A stretch of DNA of 64,000 nucleotides, taken from assembly GCA_013336525.1 (NCBI GenBank), contig JAAXTM010000001.1, forward strand, positions 248,001 to 312,000, written 5' to 3'. The notes beneath the pieces were generated by a model. That model saw nothing but the letters and a program-made list of their open reading frames with translations. It had not been told where the DNA came from and did not search any database. Origin of the DNA: Geobacteraceae bacterium. Lineage in GTDB: Bacteria > Desulfobacterota > Desulfuromonadia > Geobacterales > Pseudopelobacteraceae. Made by a program: the position numbers and the translations under genes. Positions 13,514-17,802 of the stretch are shown here, piece by piece. Positions within the stretch are counted from its first letter, which is position 1. Each line of letters starts with the position of its first letter.

Positions 13514-13550
13514 TAATAAAAAAGGCGACCAGAAGGTCGCCTTTTTTATT
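13514..13550. terminator. Bidirectional terminator between sucD and the rhodanese gene
   Basis: GGCGACC and GGTCGCC pair across an AGAA loop, with A- and T-runs on the two sides. It can serve both sucCD (plus) and the converging rhodanese gene (minus). Confidence 0.9.
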
Positions 13551-13579: not shown

Positions 13580-14953
13580 TTAGTCAGTAATCTTGTACTC
13601 GTCCCCTGTAAAGTTGACGTTTGCCTTAAGCAGCTTGACGTTAGTGTAACCTTTTGCCTTGAGGATGTCATAGGCCATTTCAGCACGCATTCCGGTGGCG
13701 CAGTGGACGTAGACAGGCTTATCCTTGGGTACCTCGTTAAAGCGCTTTTCCATATTTTCAGACGGAACATTGATGGCGCCTTTGAATTTGCCGCTTGCAA
13801 ATTCATCAGAAGAGCGGGCATCAAGAATCACAACGCCGGGGGTAGTCAGCATCTTTACGAAATCAGGAATGTTGATTTCATGCGGTGCCAGCTTACGGAT
13901 ATAGGTGAGTTTAGCCGGAGCAGGTTTTAGGCCGGTTTCAACCGGGTTACCCAGTTTCTGCCATTTGGCAACACCACCATGGAAGTAGGTCCCCTTGGTA
14001 TAGCCGTAATCCCACATAAGTTCCAAAGCCTTGGCAATATCATCCATGTTGTCACTGTAAAAAACGATCGGGGTGCCTTTGTAATCAGGGAAATTAGCCG
14101 CCTGATAATTATCCAGATTGGCAGCAGGCAGGTTCAGGGCACGGGGGATATGACCTGCAGCAAACTTATCTGTTGCCCGCAAATCCAGGAGCAGAATATG
14201 GTCTTCTTTGACAAATTTTGCAGAAGATACAAAGGGCTGGTCAGCTTTTGCCCATTCAGGATCACCACCGGAAAATACTTTTATATTTGTGTAACCATAC
14301 TTAACTGCCAGACCGGCAGCTTTAGGAGACATGCCTCACGTAATTCCTCCGCACCAGAAAATTAGCATCTTGTTCTTGTCATTAGGCATATAGGGGGAAA
14401 CTTTACCTTCCTTATCCATTTTTTCCATTTCGGTAATTGGCAGCGAGAGTGAGTTCAGTATTGTTGCCTGATGGAAACGTCCTGCGGGTCGGGTGTCAAA
14501 CAACAGGTAGTTATCGTCTTCAGGACTTTTTGACAGCAGGGCCTTGAGCTCATCAACTTTAATTTCGCTGGTGCCCTTTGGCAGTTCAGCCAAAACTTTG
14601 GAAAGCACGGTGGCAATATTTTCAGCTCCGACAGCTTTGAATACAACATCCACTTTTTCGCCGGCAGACAGGTCCTTATAACCGGACGCATTTTTGAAAA
14701 CGGTTTCTTTGTCGAACTTAAAGACCATCATCTCCTTATCCGAAATTTTTATAGAGATGGTGTTGCTCTTTCCAACAACAGTATTAACAGTACCACGAAC
14801 CTTGTTGGCGTCATTCTTTGTCGCTTCTGCAGGAACTGCTTGAGGAACCGGCGTCTCACTCTTTACCAATGGTCTGGTTTTACTACAACCGGCCAACATA
14901 GACACTGTAATGAGCGTTACCAAACTTGCTGCAACCCTGGTGCGAATTTTCAT
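13580..14953 (-). CDS. Triple-rhodanese lipoprotein with probable selenocysteine
   Basis: One reading frame of 457 codons is crossed by a single in-frame TGA at 14336-14338, read here as Sec206. The ATG at 14953 has an AGGAGG site and a lipoprotein signal (LAGC, Cys23). Three rhodanese-like domains follow. In the first (about 115-230) the active loop reads Cys201-Gly-Gly-Ile-Thr-Sec206-Gly-Met-Ser-Pro; homologues of this type that I recall have a second Cys (CxGxxC) where the TGA falls. The second (about 245-340) has Ser300 in place of the catalytic Cys. The third (about 355-457) keeps Cys418 in HCATGMR. A SECIS-like hairpin lies just downstream of the TGA. It would act on sulfur or selenium species, or as a thiol redox protein, outside the inner membrane. 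A nonsense mutation splitting a pseudogene is the alternative, but the sequence on both sides is intact. Confidence 0.75.
14303..14321 (-). promoter_or_regulatory. Putative bacterial SECIS hairpin
   Basis: On the minus strand, 17 nt after the TGA codon, CTGCC and GGCAG pair around a GGTCT loop (core CTGCCGGTCTGGCAG, 14305-14319), and two outer pairs extend the stem to 7 bp. The GGTC loop sequence and the loop distance (about 22 nt past the TGA, against about 19 in E. coli fdhF) fit a SelB-binding element. It lies inside the coding sequence, as bacterial SECIS elements do. Confidence 0.65.
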
Positions 14954-14985
14954 GCATCTACCTCCTGTAATTTGAGCTGCCAGAT

Positions 14986-15109: not shown

Positions 15110-17254
15110 TTATTGAGAGGAGATTATTAACTGCTCCGCCAGAAGTTCAACCGTATGCCTGACCTTTATCAGCGTTCCATCCTGGTCCATCCCCCCTCTG
15201 ATCTGCATGACACAGCCGGGACAGTCCATAGCGACGGTTGAAGCGCCGGTATCCTTGATGTTCTTCAGTTTGCGCTGCAGAATAGGCGCTGATATTTCCG
15301 GGAGCTTGAGTGAATACGAACCACCCATACCACAGCAGGTGTCGCACTCGAACATCTCGGCAAGTTCATATCCCGCACGTTGCAGCAATTCCCTCGGCTG
15401 TTCCGTCACCTTCAGCGTCCGTTTCAGATGACATGAATCGTGGTAGGTGATCTTGCCGAGCTTCTGCCCCTCCTTCATGGTCAAGCGCCCCTCATCGACC
15501 AATTTCTTGACTAACGTGGAAAAATCTATCGTTTTATTAGCCAGTTCCCTGGCCTCCGACATCCATTCGGTTTGTCCCAGACTTTCAAAAGTGCTGATGA
15601 ACTCGTGTGCCAGCGCCACCGTGCAGGTCGGGCAGGCGGAAATAACGTAGGTTGCATCCACGCTCAACAACGCTTTGATGTTATCGACAGCGTTATTTGC
15701 GGCCACTTCATACGCTCCGTTGTAACGGGCCGGAGCACCGCAGCAGGTCTGATCTTCAGGAAATAACACCTCGTAACCAGCCTTGTTCAGTATTCTCACC
15801 AGCGACTCACCCATTTCCGGATAGGCAAAATCAATCAGACAGCCGGCATAGAAAGCCACCCTCTCCTTCAACTTTGGCTGAATGATTTTTTTGAAACGAT
15901 CGCGGAATGGTTCGGCGGCTATTGCCGGCAGACTACGGCCGTCAGTCAGGTCCGCAAGGAACAGTGGCAGATGACGGATAAACTTACCTGATGTAAATGG
16001 CTTGCCAGCGACTGAAGCGGCTCGCAGCATGCCGTGGAACAGCTTGCGATTATTCACCACGGCATAGATCGTTTTTTGCAGTAGCGGCACCCCCTGCTCA
16101 AGCACTAACCGCCGCCTGATTTCCATTATCAGATCCGGAATATCAATTTTTCCGGGGCAGACATCTTTACAGGCACCGCACTGGATACAGAGCCCCTGAA
16201 TATCTTCGGATTTTTTCAGTTCATCGAACCAGGCAGTCAGGATTGTGCCGATGCCACCGGTGTAGACTTTGCCAAAAACATGCCCCCCGACCAGGCGAAA
16301 AATGGGGCAGACGTTCAGACAGGATGCACAACGGATACACTGCAGCGCCTGTTTGAATTTGGGATCCGCCGCCATTTCAGAGCGGCGGTTATCCATGAGG
16401 ATAATGTGAAGTCCCTTCATACTCCCGTCAGGATTCGGCGTCGGGCCGGTAATGATCGATACATAACTCGTCAGGAGCTGGGCTGTAGCACTCCGGGGAA
16501 GGGCTTTTAAAATTGTAGCGACATCCGCATACTTCTCAATCAGCTTTTCGATGCCGACCAGCGCGATATGTATTTTGGGAAGTGATGTAACAAGCCGGGC
16601 GTTACCCTCGTTGGTCATAAGCACGATGCTGCCGGTTTCCGCTACGGCGATATTACCGCCGGAAATCCCCATGTCGGCGGCAAGAAAGGCTGGACGAAGC
16701 TGCTCTCTGGCAACTTTTACAAGCCTGGGAATATCTGAAGTCAGCCTTTCATTGACCTCCTTGCTGAACAGATCAGAAACTTCCTCCTTAGTCATATGGA
16801 TAGCAGGCATTACCATGTGCGATGGTGTCTGCCCGGCCAGTTGAATAATCCACTCACCCAGATCAGTTTCCCCGACTTCGATCCCGGCTTTTTCAAGATA
16901 CGGATTGAGATGAATCTCTTCCGTCGCCATTGACTTTGATTTTACAACTGTTTTGACGTTGTTATCCTGTGCAACCTTCAGGATGTACTCCCTGACCTTG
17001 GCCGGATCATTAGTCCTGAAGACCTTGGCGCCGGAGGATTCAGCCTTACTGGCAAACTGTTCGGACAATTCATCCAGGTGTGAAGCGGCATAGCTCTTCA
17101 GTTCGGCAATCCTCCCTCGCAGCTCCTCAAAGTCGATCCCCTCATACGCCTTGGCGCGGTTAACCTTGTATGCCTCTGAGAACTTACCTAGTGCACCGGT
17201 CAGATTGGCGTTATTCACAGCCTTGGTGATGGATTCCTTGAATTCATTACCCAT
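15110..17254 (-). CDS. LutB-like iron-sulfur protein fused to LutA-like CCG domains
   Basis: A 714-residue fusion. Residues 1-300 are the LUD domain of LutB (including TGSIVLMTNEGNAR). Two 4Fe-4S clusters follow: CIRCASCLNVCP (Cys306, 309, 312, 316) and CIQCGACKDVCP (Cys356, 359, 362, 366). The C-terminal part holds two cysteine-rich CCG domains (TCCGAP near 500 and CDTCCGMGG near 650), the content of a separate LutA. With LutC it should form the L-lactate oxidising LutABC-type complex, electrons going to the quinone or menaquinone pool. Its ATG overlaps the lutC stop (TAATG), so the two are coupled. Confidence 0.92.
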   Translation of the reverse strand: MGNEFKESITKAVNNANLTGALGKFSEAYKVNRAKAYEGIDFEELRGRIAELKSYAASHLDELSEQFASKAESSGAKVFRTNDPAKVREYILKVAQDNNVKTVVKSKSMATEEIHLNPYLEKAGIEVGETDLGEWIIQLAGQTPSHMVMPAIHMTKEEVSDLFSKEVNERLTSDIPRLVKVAREQLRPAFLAADMGISGGNIAVAETGSIVLMTNEGNARLVTSLPKIHIALVGIEKLIEKYADVATILKALPRSATAQLLTSYVSIITGPTPNPDGSMKGLHIILMDNRRSEMAADPKFKQALQCIRCASCLNVCPIFRLVGGHVFGKVYTGGIGTILTAWFDELKKSEDIQGLCIQCGACKDVCPGKIDIPDLIMEIRRRLVLEQGVPLLQKTIYAVVNNRKLFHGMLRAASVAGKPFTSGKFIRHLPLFLADLTDGRSLPAIAAEPFRDRFKKIIQPKLKERVAFYAGCLIDFAYPEMGESLVRILNKAGYEVLFPEDQTCCGAPARYNGAYEVAANNAVDNIKALLSVDATYVISACPTCTVALAHEFISTFESLGQTEWMSEARELANKTIDFSTLVKKLVDEGRLTMKEGQKLGKITYHDSCHLKRTLKVTEQPRELLQRAGYELAEMFECDTCCGMGGSYSLKLPEISAPILQRKLKNIKDTGASTVAMDCPGCVMQIRGGMDQDGTLIKVRHTVELLAEQLIISSQ

Positions 17255-17802
17255 TAGATTGTACCTCCCAACTCATCTACAAACACAATAACCAGCCTCT
17301 CAGGTCCATGTACTCCGATAGTCAACACCCGCTCGATGTCTGCGGTACGACTGGGGCCGGTGATTATGGCGAGGTACGCGCAATCTCCGGGATGAACTCT
17401 GGACAACAGTGCCGGCATATCAGGCAGTATCCCGTTTGTCGGAACAATAGCAATATGTATACTGGATAGTGAAGATACCAGTCGCTGTTCAATGGCAGAA
17501 GAGTTCTGAGCAAGTGAACCGGTATCCGCCAGAGCCCAATCCATCTGACTTATTCCGAAACGGGCCTCCGCTGCAAGTTCTCTGGTAACCACAAATTTCA
17601 ATCCCGGGACCCTCTTCAGCACATTCCTGTCAAGGTTATCAAGAAATGAACATTCAGCCCACAAAGCACACGCTTGTGGTGTATCGGCCAGTCCCTCCCC
17701 CTGCAGAAACCCGATCAGAAAGTCAAGTGCCGCTTCTTTTGTAGCGTAGTGATATACCTCGGCACTGACCCCTTCAGCCCTGATTTTGAATTGCTCATAC
17801 AT
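17254..17802 (-). CDS. lutC: LutC-like lactate utilization protein (LUD domain)
   Basis: A 182-residue LUD-domain protein of the LutC type. Motifs shared with the family include GISQMDWALADTGSL and the C-terminal VHGPERLVIVFVDE. LutC lacks Fe-S motifs; its exact part in lactate oxidation is unknown. It is the first gene of a two-gene minus-strand unit, divergent from lldP across a 351-bp region that carries two GntR-type operator sequences. Confidence 0.85.
   Translation of the reverse strand: MYEQFKIRAEGVSAEVYHYATKEAALDFLIGFLQGEGLADTPQACALWAECSFLDNLDRNVLKRVPGLKFVVTRELAAEARFGISQMDWALADTGSLAQNSSAIEQRLVSSLSSIHIAIVPTNGILPDMPALLSRVHPGDCAYLAIITGPSRTADIERVLTIGVHGPERLVIVFVDELGGTI

Follow-up and report, generated by a model that had tools for sequence, protein, structure and literature searches.

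YnjE and EanB carry several rhodanese domains in a row, and to our knowledge neither contains selenocysteine (Sec). Rhodanese-like selenoproteins are listed in reviews (PMC13188914, PMC9312934), in line with the first-pass annotation of the locus described here, which mentions reports of such proteins. Zhang et al. 2026 (PMC13188914) list them in five forms, of which form 1 (Table 1 of that paper, citing Zhang & Gladyshev 2005) is a predicted PF00581 protein with the motif UxxS and one Sec (WP_010941598.1), form 3 comprises the CxU type, and TsoB, with the motif UxxxxU, constitutes form 5. Rhodaneses of sulfur-disproportionating and cable bacteria are discussed in PMC12998232 and PMC13047784, whose main texts each contain the word 'selenocysteine' zero times, and related literature includes PMC1794560 and PMC2398784. 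No paper devoted to a triple-rhodanese Sec family was found in the open-access literature searched.

Here, we analysed a gene of this kind in the window, that is, the whole 64,000-nt stretch of DNA under study. Very probably, its product is a Sec-containing, membrane-anchored exported lipoprotein with three rhodanese domains, adding a well-supported, probably exported member to the known selenoproteins.

Reading frame and domain layout

The gene (13580-14953, minus strand; 457 codons, delimited by reading frame, Pfam and an AlphaFold2 model) runs from an ATG at 14953 to a TAA at 13582-13580, and its sole internal stop is a TGA at 14338-14336 (codon 206). A Shine-Dalgarno sequence, AGGAGG, was read 7 nt 5' of the ATG (14961-14966, minus strand), and the translated start resembles a signal peptide with the lipobox LAGC at residues 20-23 (14885-14896, minus strand), which the alignment reveals as M/L-A-G-C in the relatives G009 (L018) and G013 (L019). 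The frame described in the first-pass annotation, with AGGAGG, lipobox and a single TGA interruption, was thereby confirmed, and its suggestion of an outward-facing protein finds its support in the signal peptide with the lipobox, from which we infer export and membrane anchoring. Downstream of the gene, a terminator-like hairpin, GGCGACC-TTCT-GGTCGCC followed by T6 (13518-13541, minus strand), was recognized by eye and is missing from the hairpin scan listing.

Pfam matched PF00581 to the window protein in three stretches (144 bits against a cut-off of 22.2; E 2e-42), and the AlphaFold2 model, built from 35 sequences (mean pLDDT 88.8), comprises a small all-beta domain followed by three rhodanese domains. 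According to the secondary structure of the model, the N-terminal all-beta domain covers residues about 50-119 (14597-14806, minus strand). Rhodanese domain 1 (residues about 125-245; 14219-14581, minus strand), delimited by Pfam, model and structure alignment, contains both C201 and U206, and aligning model residues 125-243 to 3tp9_A with VIA-align gave a Z of 15.5 and an rmsd of 1.6 over 104 residues. Because a strand of the model ends at residue 200 and a helix (208-218) follows U206, Cys201 (codon 14351-14353, minus strand; placed directly after strand 196-200 by the family alignment and the model) would open the active loop and U206 would close it before the helix. To judge from alignment and model, C201 appears to occupy the position where the rhodanese catalytic Cys sits. 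Pfam and the alignment place rhodanese domain 2 at residues about 246-345 (13919-14218, minus strand), with an active loop devoid of Cys (YSDNM), and rhodanese domain 3 at residues about 357-445 (13619-13885, minus strand), with the loop C418-ATGMR. Both C201 and C418 are Cys in 35 of 37 family genes. The claim that full rhodanese sequence is kept on both sides of the TGA also held, as judged by the three Pfam stretches and by a low dN/dS in both halves.

The TGA codon and its downstream hairpin

A first search of 39 genomes, including the host's own, returned matches in 30 (E up to 1e-20), and an order-wide search (E up to 1e-30) returned a match in 78 of 141 genomes; among the 91 order-wide matches listed, 19 have one TGA and 72 have no stop. 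In the first alignment (30 rows, window gene included), the column of codon 206 reads TGA for the window gene, for a relative sharing 82% protein identity with it and for a protein from another family that is 36% identical. The same column of a family alignment of 37 genes, which include the window gene and two Cys homologues from the same genome, reads TGA in 19, Cys in 16, Ser in one (G070) and Asp in one (G037), with TGA over-represented because all 19 TGA matches were taken and only part of the others. Thus, the predicted second Cys of the homologues, five residues after Cys201, was right, and Cys or TGA fills the column in 35 of the 37 genes. Most non-TGA family genes of both alignments combine Cys with Cys at the positions of C201 and U206, while G070 and G037 indicate that the Sec/Cys residue can be lost.

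The two triple-rhodanese homologues of the host genome with Cys at the Sec position (L083, G000:C11:766030-767382; L084, G000:C24:102137-103450) carry an N-terminal CxxCH motif (possible haem c) in place of the lipobox.

Comparison with the 82% identical relative revealed a dN/dS of 0.16 before the TGA and 0.09 after it, as translation and retention of both halves would predict. The longest identical run between the two genes spans 44 bases and begins exactly at the TGA (1131 of 1371 bases are identical overall); a run of this length was reached anywhere in the gene by 645 of 20000 codon shuffles. A true stop, in the form of a pseudogene, a sequencing error or two separate genes, would fit the standard ORF listing, which gives ORFs of 222 and 250 residues, and the ATG that opens the second half two codons after the TGA. 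However, all three variants are rejected because the TGA recurs in relatives (19 of 37 family genes) and because of the two dN/dS values. Moreover, the TGA falls inside the active-site loop of domain 1, where most other relatives have Cys, and four stretches described below hold two TGA codons at domain spacing, leaving a true stop a very improbable reading.

The host genome encodes selB (368 bits with neighbours), selD (381 bits) and selA (606 bits), all above cut-off, together with one tRNA-Sec above gathering score (anticodon TCA, ARAGORN). The four-part apparatus for Sec decoding is complete in this genome, so that the genes the first-pass annotation had named as a check (selA, selB, selC and selD) were all found.

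The hairpin reported in the same annotation, starting 17 nt from the T of the TGA (that is, after 14 spacer bases), was likewise found (AGCTGCC-GGTCT-GGCAGTT, 14303-14321, minus strand; 7-bp stem; loop at 14314-14310, GGUCU in RNA), and we take it to resemble the SECIS of E. coli fdhF. Folding and family comparison revealed that 19 of 19 TGA genes share a 5-nt loop at a common offset, closed by six to seven unbroken pairs, with stems of two quite different sequences and the loops GGTCT and CGTGA. In contrast, the 18 non-TGA family genes form zero to four unbroken pairs around the same loop (four in G079 and G000c). Among 118 listed sites retrieved with a DNA pattern of the Sec loop (see below), 48 have six to seven unbroken pairs, 67 have four to five and three have none; at least four pairs are therefore found in 115 of 118, the stem being weaker in this wider family than in the 19 TGA genes.

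For pair counts at synonymous sites, the first 82 of the 118 pattern sites and the 19 Geobacterales genes were reduced to 86 distinct Sec sequences and set against 39 distinct Cys sequences. Pair 20-32 is formed in 86 of 86 Sec and 14 of 39 Cys sequences, pair 23-29 in 84 of 86 and 17 of 39, and pair 19-33 in 59 of 86 and 3 of 39, respectively. In the Sec set, pair 20-32 exceeded all 2000 shuffles, which ignore relatedness (86 against a maximum of 81). Pairs 21-31 and 22-30 are uninformative because the search pattern fixed both, the outer pair 18-34 favours Cys (57/86 Sec, 33/39 Cys), and the outer pair 17-35 is about equal (46/86 Sec, 22/39 Cys).

Taken alone, the window hairpin has no exceptional stability (z -1.06; at least equally good folds in 28 of 200 shuffles), and an Rfam scan of 14200-14500 with E up to 5 returned two chance-like matches and no SECIS. 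The case for Sec rests on comparison between genes, not on a single fold, and by this comparison a SECIS hairpin directly 3' of the TGA appears to be conserved beyond the needs of the protein. The codon column (14336-14338, minus strand), the decoding machinery and the hairpin comparison all support the Sec reading proposed initially: almost certainly, SelB and tRNA-Sec decode UGA 206 under the direction of the hairpin that closely follows it. If suppression or an altered genetic code placed Trp or Cys at the UGA, this would suit the Cys found in 16 of the 18 non-TGA family genes; such a reading is very improbable, however, given the complete Sec set in the genome and a hairpin at fixed offset that is stronger in TGA genes, which SelB needs and for which an altered code would have no use.

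Distribution and gene neighbourhoods of the Sec loop family

A protein-pattern scan of the genome contig collection found no relative, and a degenerate DNA pattern, consisting of the Sec loop with its TGA and downstream codons, was therefore used for a second scan. This pattern demands both C201 and the TGA, so that their conservation among its matches is no evidence. It retrieved at least 118 sites (82 in L136-L215 and 36 in L216-L251) in at least 116 stretches. According to record titles, 71 of the 116 listed stretches belong to Thermodesulfobacteriota (52 Desulfobulbales, 9 Geobacteraceae), 15 to Nitrospirota and one to Rokuibacteriota, and 29 bear broad or unplaced names only, including SAR324 (4) and 'Deltaproteobacteria bacterium'. 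That the rest of the matched gene encodes the same protein is indicated by 34 full-length members, which could be aligned over the length of the window protein at 30-42% identity (33 members) or 82% (one). Complete proteins were obtained from 90 listed stretches with a full-length filter, and simple motif rules assigned a lipobox only to 30 of them, CxxCH only to 26, both to two and neither to 32. Four stretches (L161, L203, L220 and L222) encode double-Sec relatives, in which a second TGA follows after 104-105 codons; the two TGA codons occupy the equivalent CGGxTU loops of consecutive rhodanese domains.

In a tree of 89 rows (59 Sec and 27 Cys, with three rows left uncounted), six Sec/Cys changes are required, and well-supported branches force every one of them. 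Both G133 (L069 and L074) and G138 (L070 and L071), genomes of genus g14, possess a Sec copy alongside a Cys copy from the window's group, and the Cys copies are nested among Sec copies. Outside Geobacterales, the direction of Sec/Cys change is unreadable from the tree because the pattern retrieves Sec forms only.

The same Sec loop is thus common among groups of sulfur reducers and disproportionators, and the picture is of a large, little-studied family spread through sulfur-cycling bacteria. None of six members scanned matched an NCBIfam model at its cut-off, so that annotations may often split these proteins into two fragments. The breadth of the family, its double-Sec members and the occurrence of CC, CU and UU in one loop may have gone unseen by specialists.

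Two further kinds of protein came up in these searches. Five related genomes (L131-L135) encode short rhodaneses of a single domain, with CA(TGA)P or CQ(TGA)P and frames of 112-131 residues; by motif, they would be a separate selenoprotein of the CxU/NF041203 type, and the small CA-TGA-P proteins were accordingly rejected as members of the window family. A triple-rhodanese protein of G029 (L266), considered as ExtH or a near relative, was set aside as well, as its domain 1 loop has no Cys and its gene lies beside an ORF with four CxxCH motifs and not in a porin cluster.

The window gene follows a LUD-domain/Fe-S gene pair of the lactate utilisation type, near genes for an L-lactate permease and an FAD oxidase, and it faces succinyl-CoA ligase genes. 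The LUD-domain proteins directly upstream of the Sec gene, one of them fused to Fe-S and CCG domains, are encoded at 15110-17254 and 17254-17802. No sulfur genes were found among the scanned window neighbours, and no neighbour is common to the window locus and all of its nearest relatives; the succinyl-CoA ligase genes alone recur, in G009. At the loci of genus g14, G134, G138, G129 and G137, two gene clusters lie upstream on the opposite strand; those of genus g14, divergent from the Sec gene, encode [NiFe] hydrogenase subunits by Pfam in G138, and G125 has two adjoining genes of the same hydrogenase clusters. A gene judged by eye to encode an ABC-F-like ATPase recurs among the neighbours in 11 of 80 stretches. 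The Cys copy of G138 (L071) has selD-like (AIRS_C) and TusA-like genes close by.

Within scanned stretches of at most 8 kb, genes resembling those for CISM/molybdopterin oxidoreductases, NrfD or YeeE/YedE, of the type seen at L200 or L171, are present, as a raw count, in 10 of the 116 listed stretches. Pfam confirmed Molybdopterin, Fer4, NrfD and Sulf_transp among the neighbours at L200. The stretches with molybdopterin oxidoreductase, ferredoxin, NrfD or YeeE/YedE genes are L143, L145, L154, L155, L171, L200, L211, L219, L235 and L251. We treat this link to polysulfide-reductase-like and YeeE/YedE genes as a lead.

Possible function and comparison with described rhodaneses

The likely role of the protein, which the first-pass annotation proposed as a thiol or selenol enzyme, would be periplasmic transfer or reduction of persulfides by the Cys/Sec pair. 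Cys201, at the usual rhodanese position, would carry the persulfide, with Sec206 serving as its redox partner from the opposite end of the loop. Attack of Sec206 on the Cys201 persulfide would release sulfide or pass on sulfane sulfur, leaving behind a Cys-Sec (selenenylsulfide) bond to be reset by a thiol reductant or an electron-transfer partner. Domain 3, with C418-ATGMR, may provide a second, conventional-looking sulfurtransferase site, domain 2 would have lost its catalytic Cys, and the Cys-Cys pair of the Cys homologues would act alike, though presumably at a lower rate. We consider this Cys201/Sec206 persulfide mechanism close to an even prospect, though slightly short of it. It is supported by the rhodanese fold of domain 1, by the Cys found at C201 throughout most of the family, by the presence of Sec at both aligned positions of TsoB and by the sulfur-gene neighbours of some relatives, whereas the lactate-utilisation, lactate permease and succinyl-CoA ligase genes beside the window gene, which are not sulfur genes, speak against it. 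Further points against it are the hydrogenase genes divergent from the gene at the g14 loci, the ABC-F-like ATPase neighbour, the small share of listed stretches (10 of 116) with CISM, NrfD or YeeE genes, and the Ser and Asp forms (G070 and G037).

The main rival is a general periplasmic selenoprotein that reduces thiol-disulfides or peroxides and is not a sulfur-transfer enzyme. Most selenoproteins without a known function are thought to be redox enzymes (PMC9312934, PMC13188914), the Sec here belongs to a C-x4-U pair, TsoB joins the same kind of domain to a part that is DsbD-like by its NCBIfam name, and the neighbours scanned at the window locus include no sulfur genes. Nonetheless, a standard rhodanese loop is kept in domain 3 and some relatives adjoin polysulfide-reductase-like and YeeE/YedE genes, which makes this alternative a minority prospect, albeit a serious one. 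Handling of selenite or tellurite, with Sec206 binding products of the chalcogen oxyanions, has a precedent in a Geobacter cluster in which the rhodanese-like ExtH and a putative Sec cytochrome (ExtKL) are linked to selenite reduction (PMC5877670), and the selD-like and TusA-like genes beside the G138 Cys copy point the same way. Since no such genes are among the scanned window neighbours, and the genera of sulfate reducers and disproportionators named in the record titles fit sulfur better, we regard it as improbable.

Returning to persulfide chemistry, a wider and more tentative proposal, which is rather unlikely to hold in full, is that sulfur-cycling bacteria (Desulfobulbales, Nitrospirota, SAR324 and Geobacterales) possess a large class of selenium-dependent periplasmic carriers of sulfane sulfur, of which the C-x4-U loop is the hallmark. 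In such carriers, Sec would resolve the persulfide of the neighbouring Cys and feed polysulfide- or thiosulfate-reductase-like complexes as well as YeeE/YedE uptake. The double-Sec members and TsoB, whose loop has Sec in both places, would represent stages of a single series, and C-x4-U genes would be split in two by gene callers that have no model for them. Whatever the role, the combinations CC, CU and UU at two positions of one loop offer a clean system for asking what selenium adds to persulfide chemistry.

Among described systems, form 1 shares with the window protein the PF00581 domain, the UxxS motif (here U206-G-M-S209) and one Sec, and the Geomonas/Citrifermentans group, with U-A-L-S, fits UxxS too. 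Accessions near WP_010941598.1 presumably belong to Geobacter sulfurreducens, and for this reason form 1, compared by motif description alone, is likely to be this triple-rhodanese family. Four stretches found here have two Sec, in contrast to the one Sec given in the table (PMC13188914).

YnjE and EanB rank high in a Foldseek search with the window model (6ktw, 2wlr), with an identity of about 16% in the Foldseek alignments and a whole-chain rmsd of about 17-18, so that the similarity is domain-wise only. NF041203 (form 3, CxU, 'LYCAU') likewise has a rhodanese domain with Sec in the active loop. However, it is a single-domain protein with Sec two residues after Cys, compared with five in the window protein (CxxxxU), which scores 70 bits against the NF041203 cut-off of 115.

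A search for TsoB (NF045694, rhodanese/DsbD fusion-like) in 297 genomes of the phylum gave 13 with a match above cut-off, and ten sequences were taken. The N-terminal rhodanese of TsoB aligns with domain 1 of the window protein (E 3e-22), although the latter reaches 78 bits against a TsoB cut-off of 805. By its NCBIfam name TsoB continues into a DsbD-like part, whereas the window protein is a lipoprotein with three rhodanese domains. All ten TsoB sequences have Sec at both positions aligned with C201 and U206, where the window protein combines Cys with Sec.
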